Part shown: one piece after another, positions 2,283 through 22,734 of the stretch
Numbering within the stretch: the stretch's first letter is position 1
Layout of the letters: the number at the start of each line of letters is the position of its first letter
DNA from: a virus
Virus record (IMG/VR): IMGVR_UViG_3300028399_000030
Location: 1-22,734 of that record
Direction: 5' to 3' (one strand)
Length of the DNA stretch: 22,734 nt
Translations under genes and position numbers: made by a program
Notes under the pieces: model-generated
What the model was told of the DNA's origin: nothing
The model's input: the letters and a program-made list of their open reading frames with translations, nothing else
The model's database searches: none

Positions 2283-2285
2283 CCC

Positions 2286-3026: not shown

Positions 3027-3029
3027 GCC

Positions 3030-8363: not shown

Positions 8364-8371
8364 GGTAGGCC

Positions 8372-9123: not shown

Positions 9124-10997
9124 TCCCCATCAAGGTGCCCAACCTGGAGCTCTCGAGCGGCAAGCTGCCGGCGGCCTACCGCATCGATCCCGTCATGCTC
9201 GGGAATCCTTGGCATGGCCTGATCCGCCTCGGCGGATACGGCAATGACCAGCTCGAGACCAACGCGGGGCCGGTCGTGCCCTGCGATTATTCGAGCGCAT
9301 CTCTGTGGCCTGTGCAGCATTGCTATCTGTGGCGTCCTGGTCATGCACCGGGTGCGCCTGCGTGGATCGCCACTCCCAATCCTGATCCATCGACAGGCTA
9401 CGAGTACACCGACTATCTGCTTCACCCCTTCTATGTCAACAAAGGCTATCCCTCTTTTCCTCAGTTCATCTATCCGGAGCGAGCTGATTTCTCTGGGACA
9501 GAGGGATGCCACGGCAATTACATCGGTGAAGGGTGGCTCGCACATGGCTCCGACGGCCTCAACTGGTTCGTTGAGGCCCCAATCGTCAGTGGTTTCGCGC
9601 GTTACGATCCTGCCACAGATGAAGTGGCATTCGAAATTCGCGCACGTCCCTGGGGCGTCATTGCGCGCAATGAGCCAGCGCCTGTCGTATTGACCGGCAA
9701 CGCGCCTGCTGGGCAGGCCGGAAGTGCCGTACGTTTCGATGCCTATCCAGGGTATTTCGACGAGACGGCCGTGCATGATCTGGCAGTCGTAGCAGTTTCA
9801 CCTGATGGCACTCGCGTGCTCTTTGGGCTAGAGCTGAATCCGAGCGGGCAGGTCAAGACGCCGATGCGCGGTTATTTGGGGCTGTGGGAGGTCACGCTCA
9901 ATCTCGATGGTGCTGGCTCAACAATGACAGTCACGCTCACGAAGGACCGTGACGGCGCGTTGGGTTCTGTGAGCAAGACTGAAACGTTGACCATCTATGA
10001 GCGCAGAACACAGCTCAATGTGAACGAATATATCGATGCAAGTGGAAACAGGCATGTACAGTGGACAGGGTTGTCCTGGGTGGACGACACATCCACAACT
10101 CCTGAAGCAAGATACGAAGACAGGTTAGAGTCGTACAACCTGAACGGCCACGTGATCAGTGCTTACTTTGACCAATCCAACACGCTCAACTTGGTCTATG
10201 TCGATGCGACCTATACGCGCTCGGAGTCAGGGACGGAGAGCGCCAGCGCAGGTGGGGAATACGTCGAGGATCCCAGCGGGAATTGCATCTCAGACGATCG
10301 GTGGGCCTCGGCTGAGATCAGCAAAACGGGTAGTGCATCAGTGACCCTCACGATCCGAGACGATGCGGGGCAGTCCGTCTCGGTTTCGTACTCGCACTCC
10401 TTGTCTGCGAGCTACAGACACGACTGGGGATACAGTGGGTGCGGGGCCTATTACGACAACAAGACGCTCGACCAATCGGGCTCGATTTCGATGCCATGGG
10501 GGTCGTGGAATGACGCGATAACCAGTGACCCTGGCGGCGCCACCGCGGATGTCAAAGGGCTGGGTGACCTCGTGCTTTTCGGGTTTTATGAAAGTCCACC
10601 GAGTCCGTTCGCATACTTTCGGGGAAGGCTTGCTTTCGTTAACGAGGCTAATACGGCCTATGCCGTGGTGGCTGCCATTAACAATGAGTTGTGGGGGCAC
10701 ATCGCTGTGCGTGGATATCTCGACACTGCAACAAACGAGGAGGAGATAGTGGCTTGGGGTGATGACCCAGCCAATGTCCACGTTGGTCCGCTTTTCTCAC
10801 GATTTGGTGGAGTCGGAGGTGGATCGCTATCTTGGCCGAATTATCAGCCAAACCGTATTGCGACGCGTGCCCCGCTATGGCTCGAGCTGTATAACAGGGT
10901 GGGCGCTACGACAAATGCAACGTGTTGGCTCGCTTTCAACCCAGCGACTGGTCAGATTGGAACCGGCAATGATTTCAGGGGCGTGATTTGGCTGTAG
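9120..10997 (+). CDS. Probable tail fibre / receptor-binding protein (mosaic)
   Basis: A 625-residue protein starting at an ATG that overlaps the preceding stop. The first ~45 residues are encoded in GC-rich DNA like the neighbours, then composition drops sharply from about base 9250 to the end, with many A/T third positions. The protein is rich in Tyr, Trp, Asn, Ser and Thr, low in Lys, and beta-rich throughout, as expected for a secreted or surface-exposed adhesin. A central segment has short strands such as SGTESASAGGEYVEDPSGNC and SVSVSYSHSLSASYRHDW. No catalytic motif is evident. The composition step inside the gene suggests that a conserved N-terminal anchor was joined to a swapped host-range domain. 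Confidence 0.65.
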   Translation: MIPIKVPNLELSSGKLPAAYRIDPVMLGNPWHGLIRLGGYGNDQLETNAGPVVPCDYSSASLWPVQHCYLWRPGHAPGAPAWIATPNPDPSTGYEYTDYLLHPFYVNKGYPSFPQFIYPERADFSGTEGCHGNYIGEGWLAHGSDGLNWFVEAPIVSGFARYDPATDEVAFEIRARPWGVIARNEPAPVVLTGNAPAGQAGSAVRFDAYPGYFDETAVHDLAVVAVSPDGTRVLFGLELNPSGQVKTPMRGYLGLWEVTLNLDGAGSTMTVTLTKDRDGALGSVSKTETLTIYERRTQLNVNEYIDASGNRHVQWTGLSWVDDTSTTPEARYEDRLESYNLNGHVISAYFDQSNTLNLVYVDATYTRSESGTESASAGGEYVEDPSGNCISDDRWASAEISKTGSASVTLTIRDDAGQSVSVSYSHSLSASYRHDWGYSGCGAYYDNKTLDQSGSISMPWGSWNDAITSDPGGATADVKGLGDLVLFGFYESPPSPFAYFRGRLAFVNEANTAYAVVAAINNELWGHIAVRGYLDTATNEEEIVAWGDDPANVHVGPLFSRFGGVGGGSLSWPNYQPNRIATRAPLWLELYNRVGATTNATCWLAFNPATGQIGTGNDFRGVIWL

Positions 10998-11008: not shown

Positions 11009-11905
11009 ATGCTCGCCAACTGGGTCAAGCAAGGGACAAGCACCACAGGAACGGGCGCCATCACGCTCGATGGCACGCCGCCGGCAGGGTACGTCGCGTT
11101 CAAGGATGTATTCGTTGATGGAGAGGTTGTTCTCTACGTCATAGAAGACGGAAATAATAGGGAACTGGGAATTGGAAAGCTAACCTCGGGGGCTAACTGG
11201 ACACTTACGCGCGGCTTTGTTTTCGAGACACTATCTGGGGGTACATATACGAGAGCAAGCGGCTTAACATCTGCTAGCCCCCTTTCGCTAAGCGGGAACG
11301 CTGTTGTAACCGTTGATGCGGCGACGCACTCTCTCGGGACATTTTTTAGGACGTTCAACGCGGGAGCGACGGTTCCAGGGATCCTTCCAGCCAATACCGT
11401 AGTAGACACGACATACGGGCTAACTGAACAGTTCTCCGCAACTGACGCGCTGGTTGCGTGGCCCGCTAGATTCAATCACTTCACTACAGTTAGCAAGGCA
11501 TATGTAGAGGTTACAACAGCTGCTGGGACTAAGATGCGGATTGGCATATACACGGACGGTGGGGGAGCTTCCTTTAGGCCCGGCAAGCTCTTAGCTGAAA
11601 CGGGTGATATTGATACGTCAACCACAGGTGTGAAGTCAGCAACCTTGAGTGCCACGGTTTTCTTGCGCCCTGGATGGTATTGGTTGGGCTTTATCGCTGA
11701 TGGGGACCCGACCCTTAGGACGTTCAGTGGTACGACCGGTGACGGGTGCGAGTTTCGTGGCACAACTGGCGTATACGGCCAAAACATACATAGAGGTGCG
11801 TATACAACTGGATGGACATCTATGCCGCCTGACGGGGCCTCCCTATCTGGATGGGGCGGCGAGAGCGCTGTCAAAGAAATTCCTGCTATCTGGTTAGTGC
11901 CATGA
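11009..11905 (+). CDS. Tail fibre protein with conserved phage N-terminal domain
   Basis: A 298-residue protein. The ATG at 11009 follows a strong GGAGGGGG site; a TTG at 10988 inside the upstream gene is less likely. Residues 1-100 (LANWVKQGTSTTGTGAI, then GYVAFKDVFVDGEVVLYVIE, DGNNRELGIGKL, ETLSGGTYTRAS and SLSGNAVVTVDA) match a widespread N-terminal domain of phage tail fibres. Residues 130-298 look like a beta-sandwich (KMRIGIYTDGGGASFRPGKLL, WYWLGFIADGDPT), probably carbohydrate-binding. The whole gene has lower GC than the structural genes around it. It overlaps the next gene by ATGA. Confidence 0.75.
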   Translation: MLANWVKQGTSTTGTGAITLDGTPPAGYVAFKDVFVDGEVVLYVIEDGNNRELGIGKLTSGANWTLTRGFVFETLSGGTYTRASGLTSASPLSLSGNAVVTVDAATHSLGTFFRTFNAGATVPGILPANTVVDTTYGLTEQFSATDALVAWPARFNHFTTVSKAYVEVTTAAGTKMRIGIYTDGGGASFRPGKLLAETGDIDTSTTGVKSATLSATVFLRPGWYWLGFIADGDPTLRTFSGTTGDGCEFRGTTGVYGQNIHRGAYTTGWTSMPPDGASLSGWGGESAVKEIPAIWLVP

Positions 11906-12417
11906 TTACCTATACAGAGAAAGGATACTGGCTTCATGAAGAGATCAGGCGCCAAGGCCACTGGCTCGAACAGCGCGACGGCGTGTGGGTCAGCAGCGAC
12001 GACGCGGCCGTGCAGGCCATCATCGACGCCTTCGACCCGCTCCCGCACGCCCAGCGCGAGGCGAGCGAGCGCGTGGACGAGGCGGCTGGCAAGGCGCGCG
12101 CCCGCTACATCACCTGGAAGCCTGGGCAGGAAGCGGTCTACCAGCTCAAGCGCGAGCAAGCGCAGGCCTACAAGGCTGCCGGCTACCCGGCGGACGCCTC
12201 GCCCTGGCCGCTGATCGACGCGGAAGCGCAGGCCCGCGGCATCAGCGCGCAGCAGATCGCAGACGAGATCCTCGCGATCGCCGCTGCCTGGGTGCAGAAG
12301 GCGGCGCAGATCGAGGCGATCCGCATGAAGGCCAAGGCCGACATCAAGGCCGCGACCGACTGGCAGGCCTGCCTCGCCATCGCTGAGCAGGCCGAGCGCG
12401 ATCTGGAGGCGGTATGA
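11902..12417 (+). CDS. Tail fibre assembly / accessory protein
   Basis: A 171-residue protein directly after the fibre gene (ATGA overlap). The N-terminus (MITYTEKGYWLHEEIRRQG) is in the low-GC DNA, and normal high GC resumes about base 11940. The C-terminal half is helical, with KARARYITWKPGQEAVYQLKR, AAGYPADASPWPLIDAEA and TDWQACLAIAEQAERDLEAV, a pattern found in phage tail fibre assembly and DUF4376-like accessory proteins (a regular chain ending in a helical bundle). Such proteins either help trimerise fibres or form a small helical tip. The family is recognised only approximately. Confidence 0.6.
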   Translation: MITYTEKGYWLHEEIRRQGHWLEQRDGVWVSSDDAAVQAIIDAFDPLPHAQREASERVDEAAGKARARYITWKPGQEAVYQLKREQAQAYKAAGYPADASPWPLIDAEAQARGISAQQIADEILAIAAAWVQKAAQIEAIRMKAKADIKAATDWQACLAIAEQAERDLEAV

Positions 12418-13307
12418 GCCTGGGGGCGCGTACGCTCGGCACTGGCACGCTCGGGGTGCCGGAGCAGGCCGGTGGCGGAGGCGTGACCGTCACCTCCGAT
12501 GCCGTGATGACCGTCGAGTGGGCGGCTCGAGTGGCGGCGGACGGCGAGGCCTCGGCCGAGTGGACCGCTGCTGTGCGGGCGGACGCCGGCGCACCCCTGG
12601 AGTGGACGGCCCGCGTGGTGCGCGATGCGGGTCTGCCGGCCGAGTGGACAGCGCGGGTGCGGCGGGATGCCGTGCTGCCGGTGGAGTGGCTCGGCACGAC
12701 CGTCGTCCAGGCGGACGCTGCGCTCCCCGTGGAGTGGACCCTGCGGCTGCTCGCCGATGGGGCCATGCCCGTAGATGGCACCGCGGCCGTGCGGGCCGAT
12801 GCGGGCGGGCCCGTCGAGTGGCTGAGCCGCATCCTGCGTGACGGCGCGCTGCCGGTCGAGGCCACCGCGCGGGTCGTGACGGATGGCGCGCTCCCCGTCG
12901 AGTGGACGGGAGGCGTGCTCGTGCAGGCGGACGCGCAGCTCCCCATCGAGTGGACGCGGGCGGTGCAGGCCGGCGCGCCGCTGCCCATCGAGCACCTGGT
13001 GATCGTCCCCGCGGACGCGCCGATTCCCACGGAGTGGACGGCGGGCGTCATCGCGGACGCCTCGGCCCCCGTCGAGTGGCTGCGGCGGGTCATCGGCGAG
13101 GCTGCATTGCCGGTGGACTGGCGTGGCGCGCTGCTGGTGCAGGCCGATGCCGTGATGCCGGTGGAGTGGACGGCTGCGGCACCGACGGCAAGGACGGTCT
13201 CGGGGACATGGACGCTCGCCGCGCGGGGGACGGTGTGGGTGATCGACGAGCGGGGCACGCTGTGGGCCCTGCCGGCGACTGGCATCTGGACAAAGGCTGG
13301 AGGGTGA
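12414..13307 (+). CDS. 16-repeat virion protein (DAxLPVEWxxxV repeats)
   Basis: A 297-residue protein starting with an ATGA overlap. After a 28-residue Gly-rich N-terminus, residues 29-258 are 16 uninterrupted units with the consensus D-A-x-x-P-V-E-W-x-x-x-V-x-x. Units are 14 residues long except the 5th, 10th and 15th, which are 16 and carry V-(V/L)-Q-A endings, giving a 72-residue super-period (4 x 14 + 16). The last 39 residues form a different beta motif (TWTLAARGTVWVIDERGTLW). The alternating hydrophobic pattern and position among fibre genes suggest a beta-solenoid or stalk. I do not recognise a named family. Function unknown. Confidence 0.7.
   Translation: MSLGARTLGTGTLGVPEQAGGGGVTVTSDAVMTVEWAARVAADGEASAEWTAAVRADAGAPLEWTARVVRDAGLPAEWTARVRRDAVLPVEWLGTTVVQADAALPVEWTLRLLADGAMPVDGTAAVRADAGGPVEWLSRILRDGALPVEATARVVTDGALPVEWTGGVLVQADAQLPIEWTRAVQAGAPLPIEHLVIVPADAPIPTEWTAGVIADASAPVEWLRRVIGEAALPVDWRGALLVQADAVMPVEWTAAAPTARTVSGTWTLAARGTVWVIDERGTLWALPATGIWTKAGG
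12498..13187 (+). repeat. 16 tandem protein repeats, 42/48 nt, in groups of five
   Basis: Thirteen 42-nt units and three 48-nt units run without gaps; the 48-nt units are numbers 5, 10 and 15. The nucleotide copies are diverged, so the array is visible chiefly through the repeated GAC/GAT-GCx...CCx-GTx-GAG-TGG codons. Units 7, 9 and 12 lack the Trp. Confidence 0.85.
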
Positions 13308-13311
13308 GACG

Positions 13312-14070
13312 ATGCCCGTGACCTCTGATGACATCGTGTGGTACGGCTCGGCCGTGATGCCCGAGGACGACACGGCCACGAACGTCGGGGGTGCGATCGA
13401 CACGACCAGGCGCGTGGTCTTCACGGACATGCAGGCGACCGGCACGGTCGGCGTCTACAGCTCGGACGCAGGCGACACCACGCAGACCGTGACGATCACG
13501 GGGCGTGACTCCACCGGCGTGGTGGTCACCGAGTCCCTCGCGCTCAACGGCACCACGAAGGTGATGGGGAGCCAGCAGTTCGAGCGCATCCTCAAGATCA
13601 CGCTGTCGGCGGCAGCCGCCGGCACCGTGACCGTTGAGGACAACCAGGCGACGCCGAACAAGGTCACGGACCTCGCGCCTGGCGAGATCGAGGTGCGCCG
13701 CATCTTCTACAACTCGGAGGCGGACGTGGCAGGCGGCGCGACGCGGAAGTACTACGAGAAGATCTTCTGCAAGAACACCAACACGGCAAGCGCGATGGTG
13801 AACGCGTCGATCCTCGAGCAGGCTGACCCGAGCGGCAAGATCGCCTTCGCGCTCGAGTCCGTCCTCAACGGGAGCGACACCAACGGAACGGGCAACAACC
13901 GGCAGGTCGCGCCGGCCGGCTACACCTTCGACAACACCACCAAGAGCGTGGCGGGTGGTAACCTGACGCCGGGAGATGCGCAGGGCGTCTGGCTCGAGCT
14001 GACGCTCAATCCTGGCGACGCCGCGCAGAACACCACCTACACGCTCCGCGCCAAGGGCTCCACGACGTGA
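13312..14070 (+). CDS. Beta-rich phage appendage protein, unknown
   Basis: A 252-residue protein with a GGAGGG site overlapping the previous stop. It is Thr/Val/Gly-rich with strand motifs in order: DDIVWYGSAVMPEDDTAT, RRVVFTDMQATGTVGVYSS, TQTVTITGRDSTGVVVTES, a TVTVEDN segment, and a C-terminal GVWLELTLNPGDAAQNT end resembling an Ig-like fold. Such proteins are common in the variable tail-tip region of siphoviruses, where they form decorations or fibre platforms. It ends in a GTGA overlap with the next gene. No specific family recognised. Confidence 0.6.
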   Translation: MPVTSDDIVWYGSAVMPEDDTATNVGGAIDTTRRVVFTDMQATGTVGVYSSDAGDTTQTVTITGRDSTGVVVTESLALNGTTKVMGSQQFERILKITLSAAAAGTVTVEDNQATPNKVTDLAPGEIEVRRIFYNSEADVAGGATRKYYEKIFCKNTNTASAMVNASILEQADPSGKIAFALESVLNGSDTNGTGNNRQVAPAGYTFDNTTKSVAGGNLTPGDAQGVWLELTLNPGDAAQNTTYTLRAKGSTT

Positions 14071-14390
14071 CGCTCCTCTACGACGAACGGACAGGGCGTC
14101 ACTACCTGCTCAAGCAGCCGCAGGACTCGCGGCTGTATGCGATGGACTTCGCGTCCCTGCTCGGCAGCGACACGATAGCCTCGGTGCAGTCGGTCACCGC
14201 GGAGGCTGAGGGCCGCGTCGGCGGTGCTGCATCGCTCACGGTCGGGGCTCCGACGGTCAACGGCACGAAGGTGGAGGTGAGGATCGACGGCGGAAGCCAC
14301 GGCGAGAACTACAAGGTCACGGTCGTCATCCAGACCACGGGCGGCGACACGCTCGAGGGCGACGGGTGGCTGTACGTGCGCGATCTCTAG
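14067..14390 (+). CDS. Fibre-tail adaptor-like Ig-domain protein
   Basis: A 107-residue protein starting at a GTG that overlaps the previous TGA. The order of motifs (MDFASLLGSDTIASVQSVTA, then GAPTVNGTKVEVRIDGGSHGENYKVTV, then TTGGDTLEGDGWLYVRD) matches the small Ig-like proteins that databases label fibre-tail adaptor. These carry W/D-x-x-x-L-G-x-D-T-I-A and a G-G-x-x-G-E-x-Y-x-V-T strand pair. They are thought to link tail fibres to the tail tip. The match is by eye. Confidence 0.6.
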   Translation: MTLLYDERTGRHYLLKQPQDSRLYAMDFASLLGSDTIASVQSVTAEAEGRVGGAASLTVGAPTVNGTKVEVRIDGGSHGENYKVTVVIQTTGGDTLEGDGWLYVRDL

Positions 14391-14412
14391 GGGGATGAAA
14401 GGGGAGAAGAGC

Positions 14413-14631
14413 GTGGGTGAGCACGACGTGTACGAGCGCCTGGCGACGCTGGAGAACGACAACAAGTGGCTCCGGCGCGAGGTCGAGACCATCAAGGGGT
14501 CGCTCGAGGAAATCAAGGACATCCTCCGCCGCTCCAACGGGCACCTGTCCTGGCGTGCCGTCGCCCAGCTCTCGACCGCCATCTCGGGGCTCGTCGTGCT
14601 CGTGACGTACCTGGTGCAGCGTCTGGGATGA
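14413..14631 (+). CDS. XhlA-like holin-associated membrane protein
   Basis: A 72-residue protein with an N-terminal coiled coil (VYERLATLENDNKWLRREVE, heptad-like to about residue 40) and one C-terminal membrane segment (about 51-69, AQLSTAISGLVVLVTYLV). This is the layout of the haemolysin XhlA family, which acts with a holin in lysis. I chose the GTG at 14413 because GGAG lies 6 nt upstream; an in-frame ATG at 14395 has its G-rich tract directly against the codon, which is too close. It is followed by an ATGA overlap with the endolysin, as expected for a lysis cassette. Confidence 0.7.
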   Translation: MGEHDVYERLATLENDNKWLRREVETIKGSLEEIKDILRRSNGHLSWRAVAQLSTAISGLVVLVTYLVQRLG

Positions 14632-15086
14632 GCGAAGCGATGCGTCTCTCGCCGCATTTCACGCTGGAGGAGCTGACGGTCTCGGAGGTGGCGGCCCGCC
14701 TCGGCATCGACAACACGCCGCCACGCGAGGTCATCGACAACCTCAAGGTGCTGTGCGTGCACCTCGAGCGCATCCGCTCGGCGCTCGGCGACCACCCGAT
14801 CATCATCACGTCGGGGTACCGGTCGCCGGAGCTCAACGAGCAGATCGGCGGCGCGCGCACGAGCGCTCATCTCAAGGGCCTGGCCGCCGATTTCATCTGC
14901 CCGTCCTACGGGTCTCCCATCGAGATCTGCGAGCGGATCGTGGACGAGGCGGTGCCCTTCGACCAGCTCATCTACGAGTACGGCCGATGGGTGCACCTGG
15001 GCCTGTCGGAGACGGAGTACCGCCACCAGGTTCTCACCATCTGCCGCGGGACAGGCTACATGCCCGGGCTTCGGGAGTGCGCATGA
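14628..15086 (+). CDS. Endolysin, peptidase M15 (D-Ala-D-Ala carboxypeptidase-like)
   Basis: A 152-residue zinc peptidase of the M15_3 type that cleaves peptide cross-links of peptidoglycan to lyse the host. Motifs seen: SPHFTLEEL at the N-terminus, a TSGYRSPELN loop at 61-70, SAHLKGLAADF at 79-89 and WVHLG at 121-125. The likely zinc ligands are H81, D88 and H123, with E117 as a possible catalytic acid. There is no signal peptide, so export would need a holin. Starts by ATGA overlap with the XhlA-like gene. It is complete at the usual length for single-domain phage M15 endolysins. Confidence 0.9.
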   Translation: MSEAMRLSPHFTLEELTVSEVAARLGIDNTPPREVIDNLKVLCVHLERIRSALGDHPIIITSGYRSPELNEQIGGARTSAHLKGLAADFICPSYGSPIEICERIVDEAVPFDQLIYEYGRWVHLGLSETEYRHQVLTICRGTGYMPGLRECA

Positions 15087-15164
15087 GTGGCCGCGGACGA
15101 GGCGCAGGTGATCCTGATCGCAGCTTTCTGGGCGGCGGTGCTCGTGCTGCTGATGCTCGAGTAG
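15087..15164 (+). CDS. Candidate 25-residue membrane peptide in lysis cassette
   Basis: Immediately after the endolysin TGA, a GTG opens a 25-codon frame: AADEAQ, then an unbroken hydrophobic stretch ILIAAFWAAVLVLLM, ending in Glu. A GGAG site at 15074-15077 is within usable distance. A competing start, ATG at 15083, reads the same DNA in another frame. The hydrophobic peptide and the cassette context are suggestive of a small membrane protein, such as an antiholin-like or holin partner, but the frame is too short to be certain. Confidence 0.35.
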   Translation: MAADEAQVILIAAFWAAVLVLLMLE

Positions 15165-15346
15165 TGCGCCGCTTCCCGGTCGAGCGGCTGCTCTCGAGCC
15201 TGCGCCGTCCGCCGCGCTGGCCCTACGACTGGCTTGGCTTCGAGTCGCTCACCGAGCGCGATCGGGCGGCACTGTGGGCCGTGCATCGCCACACGCGCCC
15301 GTGGCTGCACGCACGGCGTCTGTGGGCGCGAGCGAGGGTGTCCTGA
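15164..15346 (+). CDS. Small basic protein in lysis cassette, unknown
   Basis: A 60-residue, strongly basic protein (GTG start overlapping the TAG of the tiny membrane frame). It reads VRRFPVERLLSSLRRPP, then RWPYDWLGFESLTERDRAALW and a C-terminal HTRPWLHARRLWARARVS. The same frame can instead start at ATG 15083, adding 27 Gly/Ala/Arg residues that look like translation of the membrane-peptide gene in a shifted frame; that longer form has a well-placed GGGAG site. I cannot decide between them. Tail ends with a TGATG overlap. No family recognised. Confidence 0.5.
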   Translation: MRRFPVERLLSSLRRPPRWPYDWLGFESLTERDRAALWAVHRHTRPWLHARRLWARARVS

Positions 15347-15465
15347 TGGCTGAGGTCATTGCCTTCGTGGTGATCATCGTGGTGATCGTTGTGCTCGTGG
15401 CCGGACGCGAGCGCGCGCTGGCCGGCGTCCTGTGGGCCTTGCGGAGGATCATGGGCAGGCGATGA
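15346..15465 (+). CDS. 39-residue single-span membrane protein in lysis cassette
   Basis: A 39-residue protein whose N-terminal half is one membrane helix (VIAFVVIIVVIVVLVAG, residues 4-20), followed by a basic cytoplasmic-type tail (RERALAGVLWALRRIMGRR). Its ATG overlaps the upstream TGA, and its stop overlaps the next ATG. The tiny size and position suggest a pinholin- or antiholin-like part of the lysis system. That is inference from context. Confidence 0.6.
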   Translation: MAEVIAFVVIIVVIVVLVAGRERALAGVLWALRRIMGRR

Positions 15466-15701
15466 GACGCGCGCTCCTTGAGGCAGCCGAGATCGTCGAC
15501 GCCTGGCGCGTCGTGCCGCGCCTGATGCTCGCGCTCTACGGGCTCATGTGCTGGCACGTGGCGGACTGGTTCATGCACCTGCCCGACCCGTCCGGCACGC
15601 AGGCGGCCTTCGTGAGCACGATCTGGGGCGGCGCAGCGGCCTGGTTCGGGCTTTACGTGCGGTCGGGCCCACCAGGCCCGCAGCAGCGGGGTGGCTCATG
15701 A
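15462..15701 (+). CDS. Holin candidate, two membrane spans
   Basis: A 79-residue protein with two predicted membrane segments (about 18-38, VPRLMLALYGLMCWHVADWF; and about 48-66, AAFVSTIWGGAAAWFGLYV) joined by a short PDPSGTQ loop, and a hydrophilic Gly/Pro-rich C-terminus. This DWF-x-x-x-P-x-P-x-x-x-Q-x-AFVS...AAAWFGLYV arrangement recurs in holin-like membrane proteins of proteobacterial phages. It would assemble lesions in the inner membrane that release the endolysin. Neighbours are lysis genes on both sides, and both ends overlap the adjacent genes by ATGA. Confidence 0.65.
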   Translation: MRRALLEAAEIVDAWRVVPRLMLALYGLMCWHVADWFMHLPDPSGTQAAFVSTIWGGAAAWFGLYVRSGPPGPQQRGGS

Positions 15702-16078
15702 TCTGGCTCGAGCTGTTCCGGTGGGCGGGCAGGCTCGGTGCCGGAGGCCTCGGGCGCTGGCTCAAGCTCGGCCTGCTCGGGGCCGTGGTGGCCGCGGCCG
15801 CCGGCCTGGTGCTGTGGGTGCGCTCGGCCGAGAGCCGGGCGGCGACCTACGCCGCGGAGATCGCCATGCTGCGGTCCGAGCAGCGCTCGCTCCAGGAGCA
15901 GCTGCGGGCGGCCCGCGAGGAGCGACAGCGGGCGCTGCGGCTTCTGGGCGACCTCCGCCGCAAGGAGGCCGCCCGCCGGCGCGAGGTCGAGCGGCTCAGG
16001 GCCGCGCTGAAGGAGATTCCCAATGAGGGCTGCCTGGATCGTCCCCTGCCTGATCCTGTCGGCCGGCTGCTCCAGTAA
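15698..16078 (+). CDS. Rz-like i-spanin
   Basis: A 126-residue protein with a short cytoplasmic N-terminus, one membrane segment (about 22-41, LKLGLLGAVVAAAAGLVLWV) and a long periplasmic coiled coil (about 45-115). This is the standard layout of the inner-membrane spanin subunit Rz, which joins the outer-membrane subunit to fuse the two membranes in the last step of lysis. The gene for the partner starts inside its 3' end in another frame. ATG overlaps the upstream stop. Confidence 0.82.
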   Translation: MIWLELFRWAGRLGAGGLGRWLKLGLLGAVVAAAAGLVLWVRSAESRAATYAAEIAMLRSEQRSLQEQLRAAREERQRALRLLGDLRRKEAARRREVERLRAALKEIPNEGCLDRPLPDPVGRLLQ

Positions 16079-16292
16079 GCCGGTCGTCAGGACCGAGACG
16101 GTCTACGTCCGGCCGCCGCCCGAGCTGCTCGAGCCCTGCGAGCGGCCGGAATGGCGGGGGCGCACCTACCGCGACCTGGTCGAGCACGCAATCCGCCTGC
16201 GCGAGGCCCTGGAGGCCTGCGACGACCAGGTGGCCACGCTCAGGGAGTGGTCTAGTGCTGCGCCACGCCGAGATCCCGCCGATGCGTTATGA
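16023..16292 (+). CDS. Rz1-like o-spanin lipoprotein (overlaps Rz)
   Basis: An 89-residue protein in a different frame, starting 56 nt before the Rz stop. It has a short lipoprotein signal: hydrophobic core AAWIVPCLI and a lipobox L-S-A-G-C with Cys16 as the lipidation site. A Pro-rich stretch (RPPPELLEPCERP) follows, as is typical of Rz1-like o-spanins. It then has a helical end with Cys48-type and CDDQVATLREW motifs. It is anchored in the outer membrane and pairs with Rz. The overlap of Rz and Rz1, rather than complete nesting, is one of the known arrangements. It is the last gene of the late operon. Confidence 0.82.
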   Translation: MRAAWIVPCLILSAGCSSKPVVRTETVYVRPPPELLEPCERPEWRGRTYRDLVEHAIRLREALEACDDQVATLREWSSAAPRRDPADAL

Positions 16293-16323
16293 TGAGCCAA
16301 GTGAACGGAGAGGGTGAGGCAAG

Positions 16324-16333
16324 CAGACTTACC
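16324..16333 (+). repeat. Arm-type site candidate, left copy of CAGACTTACC
   Basis: CAGACTTACC here recurs exactly at 16515-16524, one copy on each side of the tRNA-like core. Flanking direct repeats of about 10 bp are typical of the arm-type sites bound by the N-terminal domain of phage tyrosine integrases. Confidence 0.45.
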
Positions 16334-16375
16334 TGCGGCTAGGACTCGCGCGATGCACGCAGGGGCATTGATAGC

Positions 16376-16392
16376 GGCTTGACACATAAGCC
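16376..16392. repeat. GGCTT-7nt-AAGCC inverted repeat beside the core
   Basis: Two 5-bp arms (16376-16380 and 16388-16392) surround 7 nt and lie 2 nt left of the tRNA-like segment. The geometry fits a core-type pair with a 7-bp spacer used by tyrosine recombinases, but short inverted repeats like this also occur by chance. Confidence 0.3.
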
Positions 16393-16394
16393 TC

Positions 16395-16417
16395 TTCGAG
16401 TCTCCCCTCCGGCACCA
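16395..16417 (+). other. Phage attachment site core (attP candidate): copy of a tRNA 3' end
   Basis: These 23 nt have exactly the layout of a tRNA 3' end: a T-loop TTCGAGT (positions 54-60), CTCCC (61-65, starting with the invariant C61), a 7-nt acceptor strand CTCCGGC, discriminator A, and an encoded CCA. The 5' neighbours do not complete a T-stem, so this is a fragment and not a tRNA gene. The implied tRNA starts GCCGGAG, which suggests tRNA-Leu, but this is not certain. Phage integrases commonly use such 3' ends as crossover sites because they rebuild the host tRNA. An integrase gene begins 163 nt downstream. Confidence 0.7.
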
Positions 16418-16433
16418 TCCGACAGCCCGAAAG

Positions 16434-16465
16434 CGCCCGTAACCGCTTGAGGTTGCGGGCGTTTT
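16434..16465 (+). terminator. Intrinsic terminator ending the late operon
   Basis: Bases 16434-16444 and 16451-16461 form an 11-bp stem (ten Watson-Crick pairs and one G-U) with a 6-nt loop, followed by TTTTCTCTT. It would stop late transcription before the integrase. It lies 16 nt after the tRNA-like CCA, so it may also be the copied terminator of the host tRNA gene. Confidence 0.85.
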
Positions 16466-16494
16466 CTCTTGCGGGCGGCGCATTTTCGGCCTAG

Positions 16495-16507
16495 ACTGCG
16501 CCGCAGT
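16495..16507. promoter_or_regulatory. Perfect 13-bp palindrome near putative integrase promoter
   Basis: ACTGCGCCGCAGT is symmetric around base 16501 and overlaps the end of the weak -10 candidate at 16492-16497. An operator for integrase control is possible, but nothing in the window shows which protein would bind. Confidence 0.3.
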
Positions 16508-16514
16508 AGATACA

Positions 16515-16524
16515 CAGACTTACC
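16515..16524 (+). repeat. Arm-type site candidate, right copy of CAGACTTACC
   Basis: Exact second copy of the 10-mer at 16324-16333, same orientation, on the integrase side of the core. Confidence 0.45.
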
Positions 16525-16542
16525 GCAGGGCGCCGTTTCTCG

Positions 16543-16573
16543 TCCCGCACATATCCCGCACGCGATCCCGCAC
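16543..16573 (+). repeat. Three helically phased TCCCGCAC octamers before the integrase
   Basis: TCCCGCAC occurs at 16543-16550, 16554-16561 and 16566-16573, with start-to-start steps of 11 and 12 bp, about one DNA turn. The last copy ends 6 bp before the integrase ATG. Phased same-face direct repeats suit cooperative binding of integrase arms, an excisionase or a repressor of int. Confidence 0.5.
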
Positions 16574-16579
16574 GCTCGC

Positions 16580-17566
16580 ATGGCCTACATCCGCAAGATC
16601 GCCTCCGGGTGGCGCGCCGAGATCCAGCGCCGCGGCATCCGCGTCTCACGCGTCTGCCGCACCCGTCAGGCCGCCGAGGCCTGGGCCCGCCAGGTCGAGA
16701 TCGAGATCGACGCGGGCCGCTACCGGCCGGCCGCCGGCAAGACCGTGGCCGATCTCCTCGAGCGCTACGCCCGCGAGGTGAGCTCCAGGAAGCGCGGCGC
16801 CCGCTGGGAGGCCATCCGCCTCCGGATCCTGCTGCGCGACCCACTCGCCCAGGTGCCGCTCGAGCGCCTGGCCGCGCCCGACATCGCCGCCTGGCGGGAC
16901 CGCCGCCTCCGCGATGTATCCGCGGCCACCGTACGCCGGGAGTGGACGCTGCTCCGCCACGCGTTCCGGATCGCGCAGGAGGAGTGGCACTGGATCGCCG
17001 AGCACCCGATGCGCACCGTCAAGCCGCCGCCGAAGCAGCCCGCCCGGCAGCGGCGCATCTCGGACGAGGAGATCGAGCGCATCCTGTGGGCGGCAGGCTG
17101 GCAGCCAGACCGGCCACCCGAGACGGTCACGGAGCGGGTCGCGGCGGCCTTCGTCTTCGCCCTCGAGACGGCCATGCGGGCAGGCGAGATCGTGGGACTC
17201 ACCTGGGACCGCGTCCACGGCTCGCACGTGCACCTGCCGCGGACCAAGAACGGCAACCCGCGCGACGTGCCGCTTTCGTTACGGGCGCGGTCGATCCTCG
17301 ATCACCTGCGGGCCTTCGAGTTCGAGGGCGGCAAGGTGTTCGGGCTCAAGTCCTCGCAGCTCGATGCGCTCTTCCGCAGGCTCAAGGCGCGCGCCGGCAT
17401 CACAGACCTGCATTTCCACGACACGCGGCGGGAAGCCCTGACGCGCCTGGCGCGGCGCTTCGGGCCGCTGGAGCTCGCCCGCATCAGCGGGCATCGCGAC
17501 CTGCGGATCCTGCTGGACGTGTACTACGCGCCTTCCGTGGAGGAGCTGGCGGCGCGGCTGGACTGA
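16580..17566 (+). CDS. Tyrosine integrase
   Basis: A 328-residue tyrosine recombinase. Residues 1-45 look like the arm-binding domain (AYIRKIASGWRAEIQRRG), residues 50-150 the core-binding SAM-like domain, and 160-328 the catalytic domain. Catalytic residues seen: R200 in ETAMRAGEI, K223 in RTKNGNPR, H280 and R283 in HDTRREA, H305 in SGHRDL, and the nucleophile Tyr at 315 or 316 (VYYAP). The start at ATG 16580 is chosen over an upstream in-frame ATG at 16469, because the upstream part runs through the octamer repeats and promoter region. It catalyses integration at the tRNA-like core. It converges on, and overlaps by 43 bp, the excisionase-like gene on the other strand. Confidence 0.93.
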   Translation: MAYIRKIASGWRAEIQRRGIRVSRVCRTRQAAEAWARQVEIEIDAGRYRPAAGKTVADLLERYAREVSSRKRGARWEAIRLRILLRDPLAQVPLERLAAPDIAAWRDRRLRDVSAATVRREWTLLRHAFRIAQEEWHWIAEHPMRTVKPPPKQPARQRRISDEEIERILWAAGWQPDRPPETVTERVAAAFVFALETAMRAGEIVGLTWDRVHGSHVHLPRTKNGNPRDVPLSLRARSILDHLRAFEFEGGKVFGLKSSQLDALFRRLKARAGITDLHFHDTRREALTRLARRFGPLELARISGHRDLRILLDVYYAPSVEELAARLD

Positions 17567-17835
17567 GCGCGGCGGCGGCCATCGCGCAGCGAGTACGGGA
17601 ACTGCCGCTCGGCCCAGCGGATGACCTCGATGGCCCGCCAGCGCAGCGGCCCGCGGCCCCCGAGGCGGATGGCGGGCGGGAAGTCGGGGCGGATCGCGTA
17701 GCGCTCCCGCACCTGGCGCTCCGAGACCTTCAGGTAGCGGGCGACCTCGGCCACGCCCCACAGGTCCACGGCCACCGGCACCTGGTGCAGGCGGCGGGCG
17801 ATCTCCTCAGCCAGGCGCTCGATGTCGGTGCTCAC
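17524..17835 (-). CDS. Excisionase / AlpA-like HTH DNA-binding protein
   Basis: A 103-residue protein with a winged-helix HTH (about residues 24-70): LWGVAEVARYLKVSERQVRERY, then FPPAIRLGGRGPLRWRAIEVIRWAE. This is the MerR-like/AlpA fold used by phage excisionases and AlpA regulators. GTG start overlaps the upstream TGA (GTGA). Its 3' end overlaps the integrase 3' end on the opposite strand, so each transcript is antisense to the other. As the last gene of the leftward operon, it would be made when the lytic early promoter is active, which fits an excision role. Confidence 0.78.
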   Translation of the reverse strand: MSTDIERLAEEIARRLHQVPVAVDLWGVAEVARYLKVSERQVRERYAIRPDFPPAIRLGGRGPLRWRAIEVIRWAERQFPYSLRDGRRRAQSSRAASSSTEGA

Positions 17836-18236
17836 GGCGTCTCGGCGGGCCTCTGATCGCGCTCCAGCGGCTCCCAGGCCTCGCAGCAGTGGTCTGCAAA
17901 GGTCCAGCGGCGCGGCTCGTCAGGGCTGCAGTCGTGGTAGCAGTACCCGTCCTGTGCTGCCTTCCGCTGCCACCAGAGGCAGGTGCTGCAGCGGCGTCCC
18001 TGCCCTCCGGTCAGGCCCAATGCCTGCTCCAGCTCGGCCACCCGCGCCTCGAGGCGCGAAAGGCGTGCCTCGAGGTCTCGGCCGGATTTCCCGTCGAGCT
18101 GGCGTGACTCGCGCTCGCGGTGCCATGCCAGACGGCAGCGGTTCGAGCAGAACCGCTGCCAGGGGCGCTTCACCTCGAAGCCCGCCCCGCAATGGGCGCA
18201 TGCGCGCAATGTCGGCTCAGAACGCGTTGCGCGCAT
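17832..18236 (-). CDS. Double cysteine-cluster protein with coiled coil, unknown
   Basis: A 134-residue protein with two metal-binding-type clusters. The first is CAHC at 13-16 plus C30/C34 in RFCSNRCRLAWHR, a typical FCS-type or zinc-ribbon pattern. The second is C83/C86 (CSTC), C99, C103 and C117-C118. A coiled coil (about 50-72, DLEARLSRLEARVAELEQAL) separates them, so a dimer with paired zinc domains is plausible. Such early phage proteins are often DNA- or RNA-binding or host-take-over factors. Two bases separate it from the HNH gene, and it overlaps the excisionase gene. No named family recognised. Confidence 0.65.
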   Translation of the reverse strand: MRATRSEPTLRACAHCGAGFEVKRPWQRFCSNRCRLAWHRERESRQLDGKSGRDLEARLSRLEARVAELEQALGLTGGQGRRCSTCLWWQRKAAQDGYCYHDCSPDEPRRWTFADHCCEAWEPLERDQRPAETP

Positions 18237-19001: not shown

Positions 19002-19348
19002 CTTCGCCACGTCACCTCTTCGGCGAAGACGCGCTCCTTTGCGCATTCGTTTGTGAGCGTCTGCTGCTGCCGGCGCGCTCTCCAGCGGCGCCGGTACTCG
19101 AGATAGCAGCCCTTGCACAGATTGTGCGTGCCGTACTGACCCGCTGGCGCGAAGTACCAGAAGTCGGTGTCGAGCGGATAGAAGTCGCCACAGCATGAGC
19201 AGTGCTTCTCGAGGAAGCCGTCTTCGATTCTGAAGCGGCCGCGCTCGAGCCCGCGCGCGATCTGGTCGGGCGTGAGCATCGGGCAGACGGGCCCGACGCG
19301 GCCATGCGGCGATGGCGGGCCCTTGCGGTGTGCAGCCAGGTCAAGCAT
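18998..19348 (-). CDS. Zinc-finger phage protein (CxxC...CxxC)
   Basis: A 116-residue protein with a central zinc-ribbon candidate: C50-x-x-C53 in HCSCCGDFYPLDTDFW, and C78-x-x-C81 in HNLCKGCYLEYRRRWRARR, followed by a basic helix. This CxxC-FYP-DTDFW...CKxCYLEYRRRW form is a known pattern in small phage or host proteins of unknown function, likely nucleic-acid binding. ATG at 19348 has a GGGAGAGG site just upstream; an internal ATG at 19279 is the alternative. It overlaps the small membrane protein gene upstream by 8 nt. Confidence 0.7.
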   Translation of the reverse strand: MLDLAAHRKGPPSPHGRVGPVCPMLTPDQIARGLERGRFRIEDGFLEKHCSCCGDFYPLDTDFWYFAPAGQYGTHNLCKGCYLEYRRRWRARRQQQTLTNECAKERVFAEEVTWRR

Positions 19349-19493
19349 CGCGCCTCTCCCGCTCGATGGGCACCACGGCCTCCTGGCCGAGCGGTACCTC
19401 GTCGGGCTCGTCGCCGGCGGCGAAGAGGCATGAGAGCGCCATGCCGACGACGAGCCCGAGGCACACCCCCGCGATGAAGGCGATCCCGGTCAT
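19341..19493 (-). CDS. 50-residue single-span membrane protein
   Basis: A 50-residue protein starting at ATG 19493, overlapping the ParB-like gene's stop by ATGA. It has an N-terminal membrane segment (GIAFIAGVCLGLVVGMALSC, about residues 3-25) followed by an acidic then basic tail (GDEPDEVPLGQEAVVPIERERR). A GGAGGA-type site lies in the upstream gene's last codons. Tiny membrane proteins in phage early operons are often superinfection-exclusion or host-modulating factors, but nothing here shows that directly. Confidence 0.6.
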   Translation of the reverse strand: MTGIAFIAGVCLGLVVGMALSCLFAAGDEPDEVPLGQEAVVPIERERRDA

Positions 19494-20878
19494 GCCGCGT
19501 CCTCCTGTGGCTCCGTCGCCTCTTCGGCCGCATGTTCGGCAAGGCGGTAAAAGCGTTCCTGGAGGAAGGCGCGGTCCTCGTCGGTGAGGTCGCGCCCCGG
19601 GTAGTCGGCCGGGGAGAAGCCGAGCGCGTGGGCGAGGTAGTACAGCTCGGCACGATAGGCGGGGCCGGCGAGCTGGGTGATGGCGCAGTCGTAGGCCTCC
19701 GCCTCTAGCTGCGCGACCACGTCCTCCGGCACGGTCGCGACCGCGGCGATGGACGCGATGTGCGGCCGCACCTTGTCCATGATCGCAAAAGTGAAGTCGC
19801 CCGAAAGCGTACAGTCGTAGCTCTCACCGACCGGGGCACCGGCCAGGAGCCACAGCAGCAGGGCGCGGGCGTGGGGGCGCAGTCGCAGGCGGATCTGGGA
19901 CGCTAGCCAGGCGTCGAGGTCCTCGAGCAGGCGCTTGCGACGCGCTCCCTCGGCCTCCTGCTCCGGTGCCTCCCCGCGGACTTCCGGGGGGCCGGCATCG
20001 GGCTCCTCGCCGGCGCGGGCGGCCGCATCGGCCCGCTCGGCCGCCTCCCGCTCGGCCTCGGCCGCGGCCTGGGCCTCGGCTTCGGCCTGCTTCGCGTCGA
20101 AGCAGTCCTCATCCAGGCAGAAGACCTGCTGGTCGATCTGGCGCTTCTTGGTGCAGCCCTTGCAAGCCTTGGTGGGATCGAAGCGCACGTTCCAGGATGG
20201 CTCTCCATGGAAGGACAAGCGCGGGTGGTGCTGGTAGAAGAGGGCTGCCGTGTGCCGCTCCAGCGCCTCGACGGTGGGCGGGGCATCCTGCGCGTAGATC
20301 CACTCCCGGAGCTGCTCCAGCACGGGCCCGCTCGCCGCGGCGGTGAGGATCGCCCGCGCGTGGGCGGGAGCGAGGCGCTCCTCCCGGAGCAGATCCTTGG
20401 CCCACTCGGGCAGGTCGAGCAGCCGCATGAGGTTTGAGACCTGCGAGCGGCTCATGCGGATGCCGCGGGCCTCCAGGCGTCTGGGGATGTCCTTCACCTG
20501 CAGGCCGTGCTCGCGGACGAGTTTCTTGAGAAACGCGGCCCAGTCGAGGGGCGTCAGCGGCTGGGCGTGGTGGTTGTCGGCGGCCTGGTCCAGCAGGTGC
20601 TCGACCGGGTCGTCGGCGCCGCGGTCCTCGGCGAGCAGAACGGGAATGGTCTCGAGGCCGGCCATCCTGGCGGCCCGCCAGCGGCGCTCGCCGTGCTTGA
20701 TGACGTAGCCGTCCTCGGTCTCGAGGACGCGGATCGGGTTCTCGATGCCCCGGGCGGCGATGTCTTCTGCCAGGGCGTTCAGGGCCGCCTCGAGGAACTC
20801 GACGCGGGGCTGGCCCGGGTCGGGCCGGACCGCGTCGATCGGGACCTCTGTGACCTGGCCGGGGCGGAGGCCGCTCAC
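19490..20878 (-). CDS. ParB/RepB/Spo0J-family protein with cysteine cluster
   Basis: A 462-residue protein with GTG start overlapping the upstream stop (GTGA). The ParB N-terminal nuclease-like domain spans about 8-105, with box I PDPGQPR at 19-25 and box II GERRWRAARMAG at 63-74. A central HTH follows (about 127-160, RMSRSQVSNLMRLLDLP). Cysteines C239, C242, C254 and C259 form a zinc-cluster motif, then an Ala/Glu-rich linker (about 263-325) and a unique C-terminal domain. Long frames further upstream are shadow extensions. No ParA gene is nearby, so a classic partition pair is not seen. It may act in regulation, replication or episomal maintenance. Confidence 0.85.
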   Translation of the reverse strand: MSGLRPGQVTEVPIDAVRPDPGQPRVEFLEAALNALAEDIAARGIENPIRVLETEDGYVIKHGERRWRAARMAGLETIPVLLAEDRGADDPVEHLLDQAADNHHAQPLTPLDWAAFLKKLVREHGLQVKDIPRRLEARGIRMSRSQVSNLMRLLDLPEWAKDLLREERLAPAHARAILTAAASGPVLEQLREWIYAQDAPPTVEALERHTAALFYQHHPRLSFHGEPSWNVRFDPTKACKGCTKKRQIDQQVFCLDEDCFDAKQAEAEAQAAAEAEREAAERADAAARAGEEPDAGPPEVRGEAPEQEAEGARRKRLLEDLDAWLASQIRLRLRPHARALLLWLLAGAPVGESYDCTLSGDFTFAIMDKVRPHIASIAAVATVPEDVVAQLEAEAYDCAITQLAGPAYRAELYYLAHALGFSPADYPGRDLTDEDRAFLQERFYRLAEHAAEEATEPQEDAA

Positions 20879-21114
20879 GATGCCGCCCTCCGGGGGAAGA
20901 GCACGACCTGGGCGCCGTGGCCGTGCTCGTCCACGCGGCAGTGCGGGCAGCGCTCGCCACGCCCGACGTAGGTCGGGCCGGCGAGCGGGCATTCGTGATG
21001 CCAGATCAAGCCGACAGCGAGCGCCTTCTCGCGCCACCGGCGCAGGCGCTCGAGATTGCGGACGGCCTCCTCGGCCTTGCGGTGGAGCTCGGAGCTGGGT
21101 CCGTAGTGGGGCAT
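20875..21114 (-). CDS. Small Cys/His protein, first gene of the leftward operon
   Basis: A 79-residue protein with an AGGAGGAG site 6 nt before ATG. The first half is a helix (HRKAEEAVRNLERLRRWREKA), and the second half has H39-H40, C42, C56-P-H-C59 and H64/H66, a possible zinc ribbon. It is the first gene after the leftward promoter, where phages often place short regulators (for example antiterminators). No family recognised. Confidence 0.65.
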   Translation of the reverse strand: MPHYGPSSELHRKAEEAVRNLERLRRWREKALAVGLIWHHECPLAGPTYVGRGERCPHCRVDEHGHGAQVVLFPRRAAS

Positions 21115-21172
21115 GGCTGCTCCTCCTGGTAAACCGCCTGTGCGGGCTTCTCTCCGAGGGCCCTCAGAGCCG

Positions 21173-21228
21173 CCGCCCCGGCCCCGGGCCCGGCCCGTCG
21201 GAAAGCCCTCCTCATGGGGCCGGGGCGG
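21173..21228 (-). other. GC-rich leader hairpin upstream of the leftward operon
   Basis: In the leftward transcript, bases 21216-21228 pair perfectly with 21173-21185 (13 bp) around a 30-nt loop. The leader is about 120 nt long between the -10 box and the first ATG, and no longer ORF in it looks real. The structure could affect translation or processivity; this is inference. Confidence 0.35.
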
Positions 21229-21244
21229 GGCGGTTACGGGAGGG

Positions 21245-21516: not shown

Positions 21517-21879
21517 ATGGAAGAGAAAAAGGAGTCTCGGCAGAAGCTTCGATTCAAGTACGTTTTCGACGATGACTACAATCCCGTATACGCGAACGGC
21601 GCGTATGGAGGCGTGTCTCCGCGGGGTGAGATCGTGATCAACTTTTACCATGAACGGCCGGCTTTGCCGCGTGACACATTTCAGGGATTGTCGGTATCCG
21701 GGTTTCCTGAGGGCGCTGAAGAGGTGCCCGACGAAGTCTCAAGGACACTGATTCGCAAGGTTACGGCCGGCGTGGTAATGAACTACGACACCGCGAAAGC
21801 TGTCCATGAGTGGCTCGGTCGCCATCTGAGGCGTCTGGAACAGGCGAGGAAGGAGACCGGCAATGGTGGCGACCGTTGA
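21517..21879 (+). CDS. First gene of accessory cassette, unknown (possibly DUF3467-like)
   Basis: A 120-residue protein. ATG 21517 is chosen with a GGGG-rich site before it; an in-frame ATG at 21430 lies inside the promoter -10 and is unlikely. Motifs: KYVFDDDYNPVYANGAYGGVSP then RGEIVINFYHERPALPRD, and a C-terminal AGVVMNYDTAKAVHEWLGRHLRRLEQ. The Y-A-N...V-x-S/P...I-x-F and V-V-M-x-x-x-x-A-K-A-(x)-x-x-x-L layout resembles DUF3467-type proteins, but I am not certain. Gene overlaps the next by 17 nt. Lower GC than the operons on both sides. It may be a partner or regulator of the HicB/HicA-like pair. Confidence 0.6.
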   Translation: MEEKKESRQKLRFKYVFDDDYNPVYANGAYGGVSPRGEIVINFYHERPALPRDTFQGLSVSGFPEGAEEVPDEVSRTLIRKVTAGVVMNYDTAKAVHEWLGRHLRRLEQARKETGNGGDR

Positions 21880-22246
21880 GTTCTTGCAGACGTCAGCCCC
21901 CGGCATAAAGGCACCCGTGGAAGCAGGGACTTCGACCACGGAGCTCGAGGAGCAGCGAGTCCCGCTGGAGGTATGGGACGACTCGGACACGTTCGATCTC
22001 ATACTGGAAGTTCCGGGCAAAAGGCTAGTGCGCCCCATCGAAGCTCACGTCCAGTGGGATGAAGTCCATTGGCTTGCGACGACCGAGGTGGCGCCTCTTT
22101 ATGCAACAGGTGCGAGCAGGGAAGAGGCCGTTGAGAGTCTCGCCCATGAGATCGGAATGCTCATTGATGAGCTGGAAGAGATGGACGAGCGCGAGCCAGA
22201 GTGGGATCTCGTGCTGCAAAGGCTAAGGGAATATGTGGAGCGATGA
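21863..22246 (+). CDS. HicB-like antitoxin candidate
   Basis: A 127-residue protein with an AGGAG site 7 nt before its ATG. Residues about 35-105 have the HicB layout of alternating strands and one helix: LILEV, HVQWDEVHWLATTEVAPLYATGASREEAVESLAHEI, matching the family's W-x-A...L-P-x-x-x-A-x-G-x-(T/S)-x-E-E-A-x-x-x-L core. HicB proteins neutralise HicA toxins and often bind their own operator, which the repeats at 21394-21421 could provide. The N-terminal ~35 residues are extra, and there is no obvious C-terminal HTH. The gene precedes its toxin partner, the less common B-A order. ATGA overlap with the next gene. Confidence 0.55.
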   Translation: MVATVEFLQTSAPGIKAPVEAGTSTTELEEQRVPLEVWDDSDTFDLILEVPGKRLVRPIEAHVQWDEVHWLATTEVAPLYATGASREEAVESLAHEIGMLIDELEEMDEREPEWDLVLQRLREYVER

Positions 22247-22518
22247 CCCAATATTCTGGGCTTCGGATCAAGCAGATTTGCGAAAACAAGCTCGGGATCG
22301 AGTTCAGAAGTGGCCGCGGCAGCCACCGCAATGGCTGGTACGTGAGGAACGGTAGAAAGCTGAAGCGCATCACGGTGCCCTGCACGCGTGATGAAGTTCC
22401 CCCCAAGACCTTCGGAAGCATGGCGCGCCAGCTTGGCTTGAACAAAAGGGAGTTCGACGAGCTATTACGCTGCATCCTGGACGAGGATGAGTATTTTGCG
22501 CTGATCATGCACCGGTGA
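22243..22518 (+). CDS. HicA-like toxin candidate
   Basis: A 91-residue basic protein with a dsRBD-like HicA pattern: an N-terminal helix, then FRSGRGSHRNGWYVRNG with a Gly-Ser-His motif (H28), KRITVPCTRDEVPPKTFGSM with TVP and P-K-T-F, and a helix ending RQLGLNKREFDELL. In known HicA proteins the His after G-S is the catalytic residue for mRNA cleavage in translation. The C-terminal extension to 91 residues is longer than the classic 60-70. The ATG overlaps the previous stop (ATGA), giving coupled antitoxin and toxin synthesis. Divergent from classic HicA, so a related nuclease or inactive relative is possible. Confidence 0.55.
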   Translation: MTQYSGLRIKQICENKLGIEFRSGRGSHRNGWYVRNGRKLKRITVPCTRDEVPPKTFGSMARQLGLNKREFDELLRCILDEDEYFALIMHR

Positions 22519-22521
22519 TGG

Positions 22522-22540
22522 CGCGCGTTATGCGCGTTTC
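22522..22540 (+). terminator. Weak convergent terminator
   Basis: CGCGC (22522-22526) and GCGCG (22532-22536) pair around a 5-nt loop and are followed by TTTC. It lies between the rightward cassette and the convergent repressor gene, overlapping the repressor's last codons. The short T run makes it weak. Confidence 0.35.
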
Positions 22541-22734
22541 CCGTGCCACATGTAGATGACCTTGGCGATCACTTCGACGTCCGAGACGACCTGGTCGCGG
22601 TAGCGCGCGTTGTCGCTGATGAGCGCGATGCCGCCGGGGACGAACTGGAGGCGCTTGACGAGCAGGGCGCCCTCGAGGCGGACGACGTAGATCCCGTCGG
22701 TGAGCTCCTCGCGGGTGTAGGTGCGGCGCTCGAC
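22528..22734 (-). CDS. CI/LexA-type repressor, S24 peptidase C-terminal part (partial)
   Basis: The last 68 residues of a phage repressor; the gene runs off the right edge. The visible part has TDGIYVVRLEGALLVKRLQ, which contains the catalytic Lys of the S24 Ser-Lys dyad (residue 27 of the fragment, ALLVKRL), then VPGGIALISDN, YRDQVVSDVEVIAKVIYMWHGKRA, the typical end of CI-like repressors. This domain dimerises the repressor and self-cleaves in response to RecA during the SOS response. The catalytic Ser and the HTH lie outside the window. It likely binds the TAGC-N4-GCTA operators at 21246-21285. That pairing is inferred. Confidence 0.88.
   Translation of the reverse strand, partial: VERRTYTREELTDGIYVVRLEGALLVKRLQFVPGGIALISDNARYRDQVVSDVEVIAKVIYMWHGKRA

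Follow-up and report, generated by a model that had tools for sequence, protein, structure and literature searches.

The DNA analysed here (the window) is a linear IMG/VR virus record of 22,734 bases, without end repeats and with no host DNA identified in it. Genes to the left of position 16395 encode a capsid fragment, tail proteins, a tape measure protein, an M15 endolysin and a spanin pair, and those to the right encode a tyrosine integrase, an excisionase-like HTH protein, an HNH nuclease, ParB, a HicA-like protein and the end of a CI-type repressor (Table 1). Since the left edge of the window cuts the major capsid gene and the right edge cuts the CI-type repressor gene, the contig is phage throughout, as judged from the genes identified. 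Comparison of the window with phage records by megablast gave no match. In the tail-fibre region (12414-13307), a protein made of degenerate D-A-x-x-P-V/I-E-W motif repeats was found, accompanied by 37-nt repeats in the DNA. Beside the repressor gene, positions 21520-22518 hold a DUF3467 protein, an ORF of 127 aa that matched no family and the HicA-like protein, the latter assigned from a Pfam match below cutoff and from phrog_353 (toxin). These three may form a toxin-antitoxin-like set in the lysogeny region.

Between the two groups of genes lies TTCGAGTCTCCCCTCCGGCACCA, 23 nt on the plus strand (16395-16417), which has the form of the last part of a tRNA gene, beginning with the T-loop and ending with CCA. 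It is composed of TTCGAGT (T-loop), CTCCC (3′ side of the T-stem), CTCCGGC (3′ side of the acceptor stem) and ACCA. ARAGORN found no whole tRNA in the window, and the window had no Rfam match. Two places in the window fit the pattern TTCRANY-N13-CCA, this core and a site at 12031 within a late-gene ORF, so that a tRNA-end motif alone is weak evidence. The core is adjoined by the tyrosine integrase gene, as in an attP that targets a tRNA; the integrase ATG lies 162 nt past the CCA, and an alternative upstream start, TTG, is present at 16469.

Table 1. Features of the putative attP region and of neighbouring genes in the window
Feature	Position	Strand	Basis
Rz-like ORF, overlapping the Rz1-like gene	15698-16078		phrog_214, E 1.3e-9
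Rz1-like outer spanin, last late gene before the core	16023-16292	+	PHROG_456 Rz-like spanin, E 2.6e-25
P (left) arm of attP	16293-16394	+	86.4% to left arm of L102 attP, 89.1% to L167 (110 nt each); unlike host side
Candidate arm-type site CAGACTTACC, copy 1	16324-16333	+	exact in L102; one mismatch in L167
attP core	16395-16417	+	exact match at tRNA-Leu(TAG) in L162, L164, L165, L166; attL match starts at 16395
P′ (right) arm, core to integrase gene	16418-16579	+	99.4% to L102, 90.9% to L169 over 165 nt
Intrinsic terminator hairpin with T-rich tail, phage-borne	16429-16466	+	-30.3 kcal/mol, z -5.2
Candidate arm-type site CAGACTTACC, copy 2	16515-16524	+	invariant in L102 and L169
Three CCCGCAC, candidate P′ arm-type sites	16544-16573	+	invariant in L102 and L169
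Tyrosine integrase	16580-17566	+	PF00589, E 2.4e-18; phrog_1, E 1.5e-49
Excisionase-like HTH protein, convergent with integrase	17524-17835	-	PF12728; phrog_66 excisionase, E 3e-8
ParB-like gene	19490-21037		
CI-type repressor, C-terminal end	22531-22734	-	PF00717 Peptidase_S24, E 7.5e-9; phrog_4 repressor, E 2.3e-12

Matches of the core and related prophages

The core goes beyond a chance resemblance, because genuine tRNA-Leu(TAG) genes end in exactly this sequence. Among 369 genomes searched, from a class reached via integrase relatives (the class of G269), three (G990, G791 and G898) had the exact 23-nt core and six had it with at most one mismatch. Exact copies occurred at five places, four of which are tRNA-Leu genes with anticodon TAG as typed by ARAGORN; the fifth (L163) is a displaced fragment. 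When 76 relatives of G898 were searched, again just the same three genomes had the exact core. Identity with the window extends beyond the 23-nt core at two empty host sites, which share 26 nt (16395-16420). A reading made from the sequence alone had placed a tRNA 3′ end here between late genes and integrase, and had proposed that host genomes be searched for a tRNA sharing at least these 23 nt, perhaps a leucine tRNA, with GCCGGAG at its 5′ end. The search recovered such a tRNA, which is a tRNA-Leu(TAG) and carries the predicted 5′ sequence. Judged from its sequence, 16395-16417 is the attP core of a temperate siphovirus-like phage and a copy of the end of tRNA-Leu(TAG).

The genome bin G898 holds three core copies, L169 (contig C329), L167 (C171) and L168 (C189). 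The first is of attL type, with a whole tRNA-Leu (ARAGORN) that ends in the core and is followed by a phage integrase gene; it matches the window at 93.6% over 16395-18236, from the first base of the core onwards, and at 90.7% over 19074-21237. L167 is of attR type: phage late genes are followed by a core fragment, at which ARAGORN found no tRNA, and then by host genes. Its identity with the window is 97.2% (2183-9235), 84.3% (11901-15322) and 87.8% (15482-16250), then 89.5% up to the core. The host side of L167 has a DUF155 gene and then an ORF that is 83.6% identical in DNA to the ORF behind the empty tRNA at L168. Together with L170 and L171, L168 represents the empty tRNA-Leu(TAG) sites (G898, G990 and G791), where about 30 nt separate the CCA from the start of an ORF. 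This ORF contains a HELxHH-like sequence, as seen by eye, and had no Pfam match.

Flanks were compared over 110 nt to the left and 165 nt to the right of the core. The left flank of the window resembled the left flank of L167, and its right flank the right flank of L169 (identities in Table 1); on neither side was there a resemblance to the host flanks. Such a set of attP, attL, attR and attB sequences is the pattern expected for site-specific integration. A restored tRNA (L169) and a displaced fragment (L167) are present in relatives, as in a lysogen, if it is assumed that both contigs belong to a common prophage. As L167 and L169 lie on separate contigs in a mixed bin, they may stem from two strains, and the divergence of the host-side ORF of L167 and its intervening DUF155 gene both count against taking the two contigs as the ends of one prophage. 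The arrangement expected of an integrated prophage, with late genes and integrase at opposite ends, is seen in these relatives, and the attP reading is borne out by related prophages at tRNA-Leu(TAG), in which the integrase gene lies by the restored tRNA and the late genes lie at the other end.

Similar arrangements are found in known systems. The genome of Acinetobacter phage vB_AbaS_TRS1 was assembled as a circular contig, and its attP sequence was found at the prophage boundaries (PMC5064099). Like the window, TRS1 (KX268652) has endolysin, small ORF, attP, tyrosine integrase and convergent excisionase in this order, and its integrase is 43.7% identical to that of the window over the whole length. 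Unlike the window, its core is reversed relative to the integrase gene, with the CCA end away (by eye), and no strong terminator follows the CCA. In prophage records of the TRS1 integrase clade, the core was found near both ends in three of six; in the other three, no repeat of at least 14 nt linked the ends. By eye, a tRNA-like core inverted relative to the integrase gene, with the CCA end away, was seen at L133, L002, L154, L156 and L134; the integrase clade thus uses both core orientations.

A draw of 398 genomes from the phylum yielded four with an integrase relative at E 1e-70, namely G198, G269, G449 and the bin of a further contig, L102, described below. The core, as oriented by eye relative to the integrase gene, lies as in the window in G198 and is inverted in G269 and G449. 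The G198 prophage resembles the window in having a 45% identical integrase, encoded directly behind a tRNA-Leu(TAA) in the same orientation, and a second core copy with two mismatches in the 23-nt pattern lies 54.5 kb downstream. It differs in its choice of leucine tRNA and in a short hairpin that overlaps the tRNA end (by eye). In PMC2951348, argW-intS of the KplE1 prophage is given as an STI arrangement, in which the tRNA is followed by an integrase gene of like orientation; this is the commonest shape (736 of 1273), and autoregulation of STI integrases is described as proposed and as confirmed in several cases. The lysogen form at L169 is like KplE1, with the integrase gene behind the tRNA and in the same direction; unlike KplE1, the gap between CCA and integrase gene in the window measures 162 nt and contains a strong hairpin.

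State of the phage genome

A second copy of the junction was found in L102 (JALSGW010000160.1), a 3.4-kb contig from an Alphaproteobacteria-labelled bin, which carries the endolysin end, spanins, core, terminator, integrase and excisionase genes. On sequence grounds L102 is a second phage contig in the attP state. It was the sole genome-contig match of a 22-mer made of the core end and downstream bases, and it accounted for the exact core in the phylum draw (1/398); the 23-mer core was absent from the viral contigs scanned. In the L102 bin, where only 27 tRNAs were found, no other core copy was present within two mismatches, and among the bin and 59 relatives the core with at most one mismatch occurred in 1/60, in the bin's own phage contig. 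Matches with at most three mismatches were present in 72 of 240 genomes of the bin's class, none better than two apart from L102. Near matches typed in that class belonged to tRNA-Leu or tRNA-Thr, with a tRNA at 13 of 14 loci. An integrase search of 31 genomes of the bin's order returned the bin itself only. The L102 bin is without a matching tRNA, and it is a different class that contains the targeted tRNA and the prophage relatives. L102 is probably misbinned, and its bin is probably not the host.

Because phage DNA lies on both sides of the core, while the integrated relative has late genes and integrase at opposite ends, the window is in the attP state. We consider it very highly probable that the window holds the attP of a temperate tailed phage in unintegrated form, as free circular or virion DNA, the circular form itself being presumed. 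For a temperate phage outside the chromosome, such an arrangement is ordinary, textbook biology. Three states had been offered from sequence alone, of which the unintegrated phage genome is favoured; an episomal prophage gains nothing from ParB, and a tandem lysogen stays on the list at low probability.

A tandem lysogen would place two related prophages head to tail in one tRNA-Leu gene, with the window spanning the inner junction, and would give an identical local sequence. Such arrays are on record: Islander counted 125 tandem arrays with at least two members (PMC4383910). This state needs two phage copies, however, and the window is a virus contig without identified host DNA. Moreover, the attP junction occurs in two separate contigs, the window and L102, with no positive sign of a tandem. 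A free circle or virion DNA is far likelier, and a tandem lysogen is judged improbable.

The ParB-like gene could instead keep the phage as a plasmid, with the core as a relic. However, L169 is integrated behind tRNA-Leu and has the ParB region, the integrase and excisionase reading frames are intact, and the proteins scanned, which represent part of the ORFs, included no ParA. Since an integrated relative carries the ParB region, ParB is no sign of an episome, and relatives with that region were found integrated rather than maintained without integration. We regard an episomal prophage as very unlikely.

Slightly less probable still is an assembly chimera, in which attL and attR reads were joined via the core repeat of about 26 nt. 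The repeat is short and both junction types occur in one bin, as this explanation would require; against it, L102 has the same junction in a different record and with a different left arm. The final word size of assemblers is usually greater than 26 nt, which also argues against a chimera. That the window contains one end of an integrated prophage beside unrelated DNA has nothing in its favour besides the tRNA end itself and can practically be dismissed: bacterial genes next to the core, which would have spoken against attP, were not seen, and in relatives each flank of the core aligns to phage DNA and not to a host flank.

Hairpin, arms and exchange at the core

The hairpin behind the CCA has a stem of 16429-16444 paired with 16451-16466, and none of 200 shuffles folded as well. 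It was the sole terminator-like site found by a scan of 15000-17600. It begins 11 nt past the CCA and its G+C-rich part about 15 nt past; the sequence-only reading, which put a terminator 16 nt after the CCA, was close to the latter figure. At L169 (attL) the hairpin is kept behind the restored tRNA (-27.9 kcal/mol, z -6.3). Scanning of 165 nt past the CCA gave no intrinsic terminator at any of the three empty sites, and the stretch behind the CCA at L168 folded no better than shuffles. The proposal that the hairpin doubles as a replacement terminator for the host tRNA agrees with its position behind the restored tRNA in the lysogen, but not with the empty sites; with no intrinsic terminator found at the three, the hairpin is an added terminator and not a visible replacement. 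In the free phage it probably terminates the late transcript, and in the lysogen that of the tRNA. The same statement, of a phage-borne terminator behind a tRNA attachment site, was not recognised among the open-licence papers listed by literature searches.

The 10-nt sequence CAGACTTACC forms a direct repeat spanning the core. Arms sharing at least 10 nt were obtained in 28 of 2000 shuffles, so that the arm repeats beat chance only modestly. The three CCCGCAC copies start at 16544, 16555 and 16567, with spacings of 11 and 12 nt. The integrase promoter would be expected in the P′ arm; a scan for an integrase promoter overlapping the attachment region found no sigma-70-like promoter.

Comparison of the window with L102 gave 15/113 mismatches to the left of the core, 1/162 in the right arm and 18/1395 in the integrase-excisionase genes. 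Across 16282-17974, identity rises from 86-87% to about 99% at 16390-16405, within or immediately ahead of the core's T-loop half, and falls again near 17975. The left arm of L102 is closer to L167 (92.0%) than to the window (86.7%), whereas its right arm and integrase gene are closer to the window (98.7%) than to L169 (93.6%). These data, from three sequences and one noncoding arm, suggest that the integration (int-xis) module was exchanged at the core. It is a tentative possibility, which we consider less probable than not by some distance, that the core is a swapping point for integrase modules among phages that use the same tRNA, and that this attP has a built-in insulator hairpin.

Proposed integration and its meaning

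In integration, the integrase would bind the candidate arm sites, CAGACTTACC at 16324 and 16515 and the CCCGCAC copies of the P′ arm, and would recombine the core with the identical 3′ end of the host tRNA-Leu(TAG). Strand exchange would probably take place in the T-loop. For mycobacteriophage Ms6, PMC1762012 describes an attP core of 26 bases and suggests that strands are exchanged in the 7-bp T-loop. That core, like the one in the window, begins TTCGA and reaches from the T-loop to the 3′ end of the tRNA, although its target is a tRNA-Ala of mycobacteria. Exchange in the T-loop as in Ms6 is consistent with identity from the first T-loop base and with the change point between the window and L102. 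The phage copy of the core would restore the tRNA, and the host would therefore keep a working gene; the integrase gene would adjoin it in the same direction, with the late genes at the far end. The excisionase would serve the reverse reaction. In the lysogen, the hairpin would then stand directly behind the restored tRNA and would stop tRNA transcription from entering the integrase gene, and in the free phage the same hairpin would stop late transcription from entering it.

The attachment site ties an uncultivated phage to a host lineage. It also provides a set of attP, attL, attR and attB sequences for an integrase that is small and has a well-defined target, and this set could serve for integration work in that lineage. 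A modest point open to testing is the terminator that the phage brings in right behind the restored tRNA. Prophage insertion would part the HELxHH-like ORF from the tRNA-Leu(TAG) promoter. If the core is indeed a module-swapping point with an insulator, the hairpin would shield the integrase gene against late transcripts when the phage is free and against tRNA transcripts when it is integrated, and would keep transcription of tRNA-Leu(TAG) from reaching the ORF that lies closely behind this gene at empty sites.
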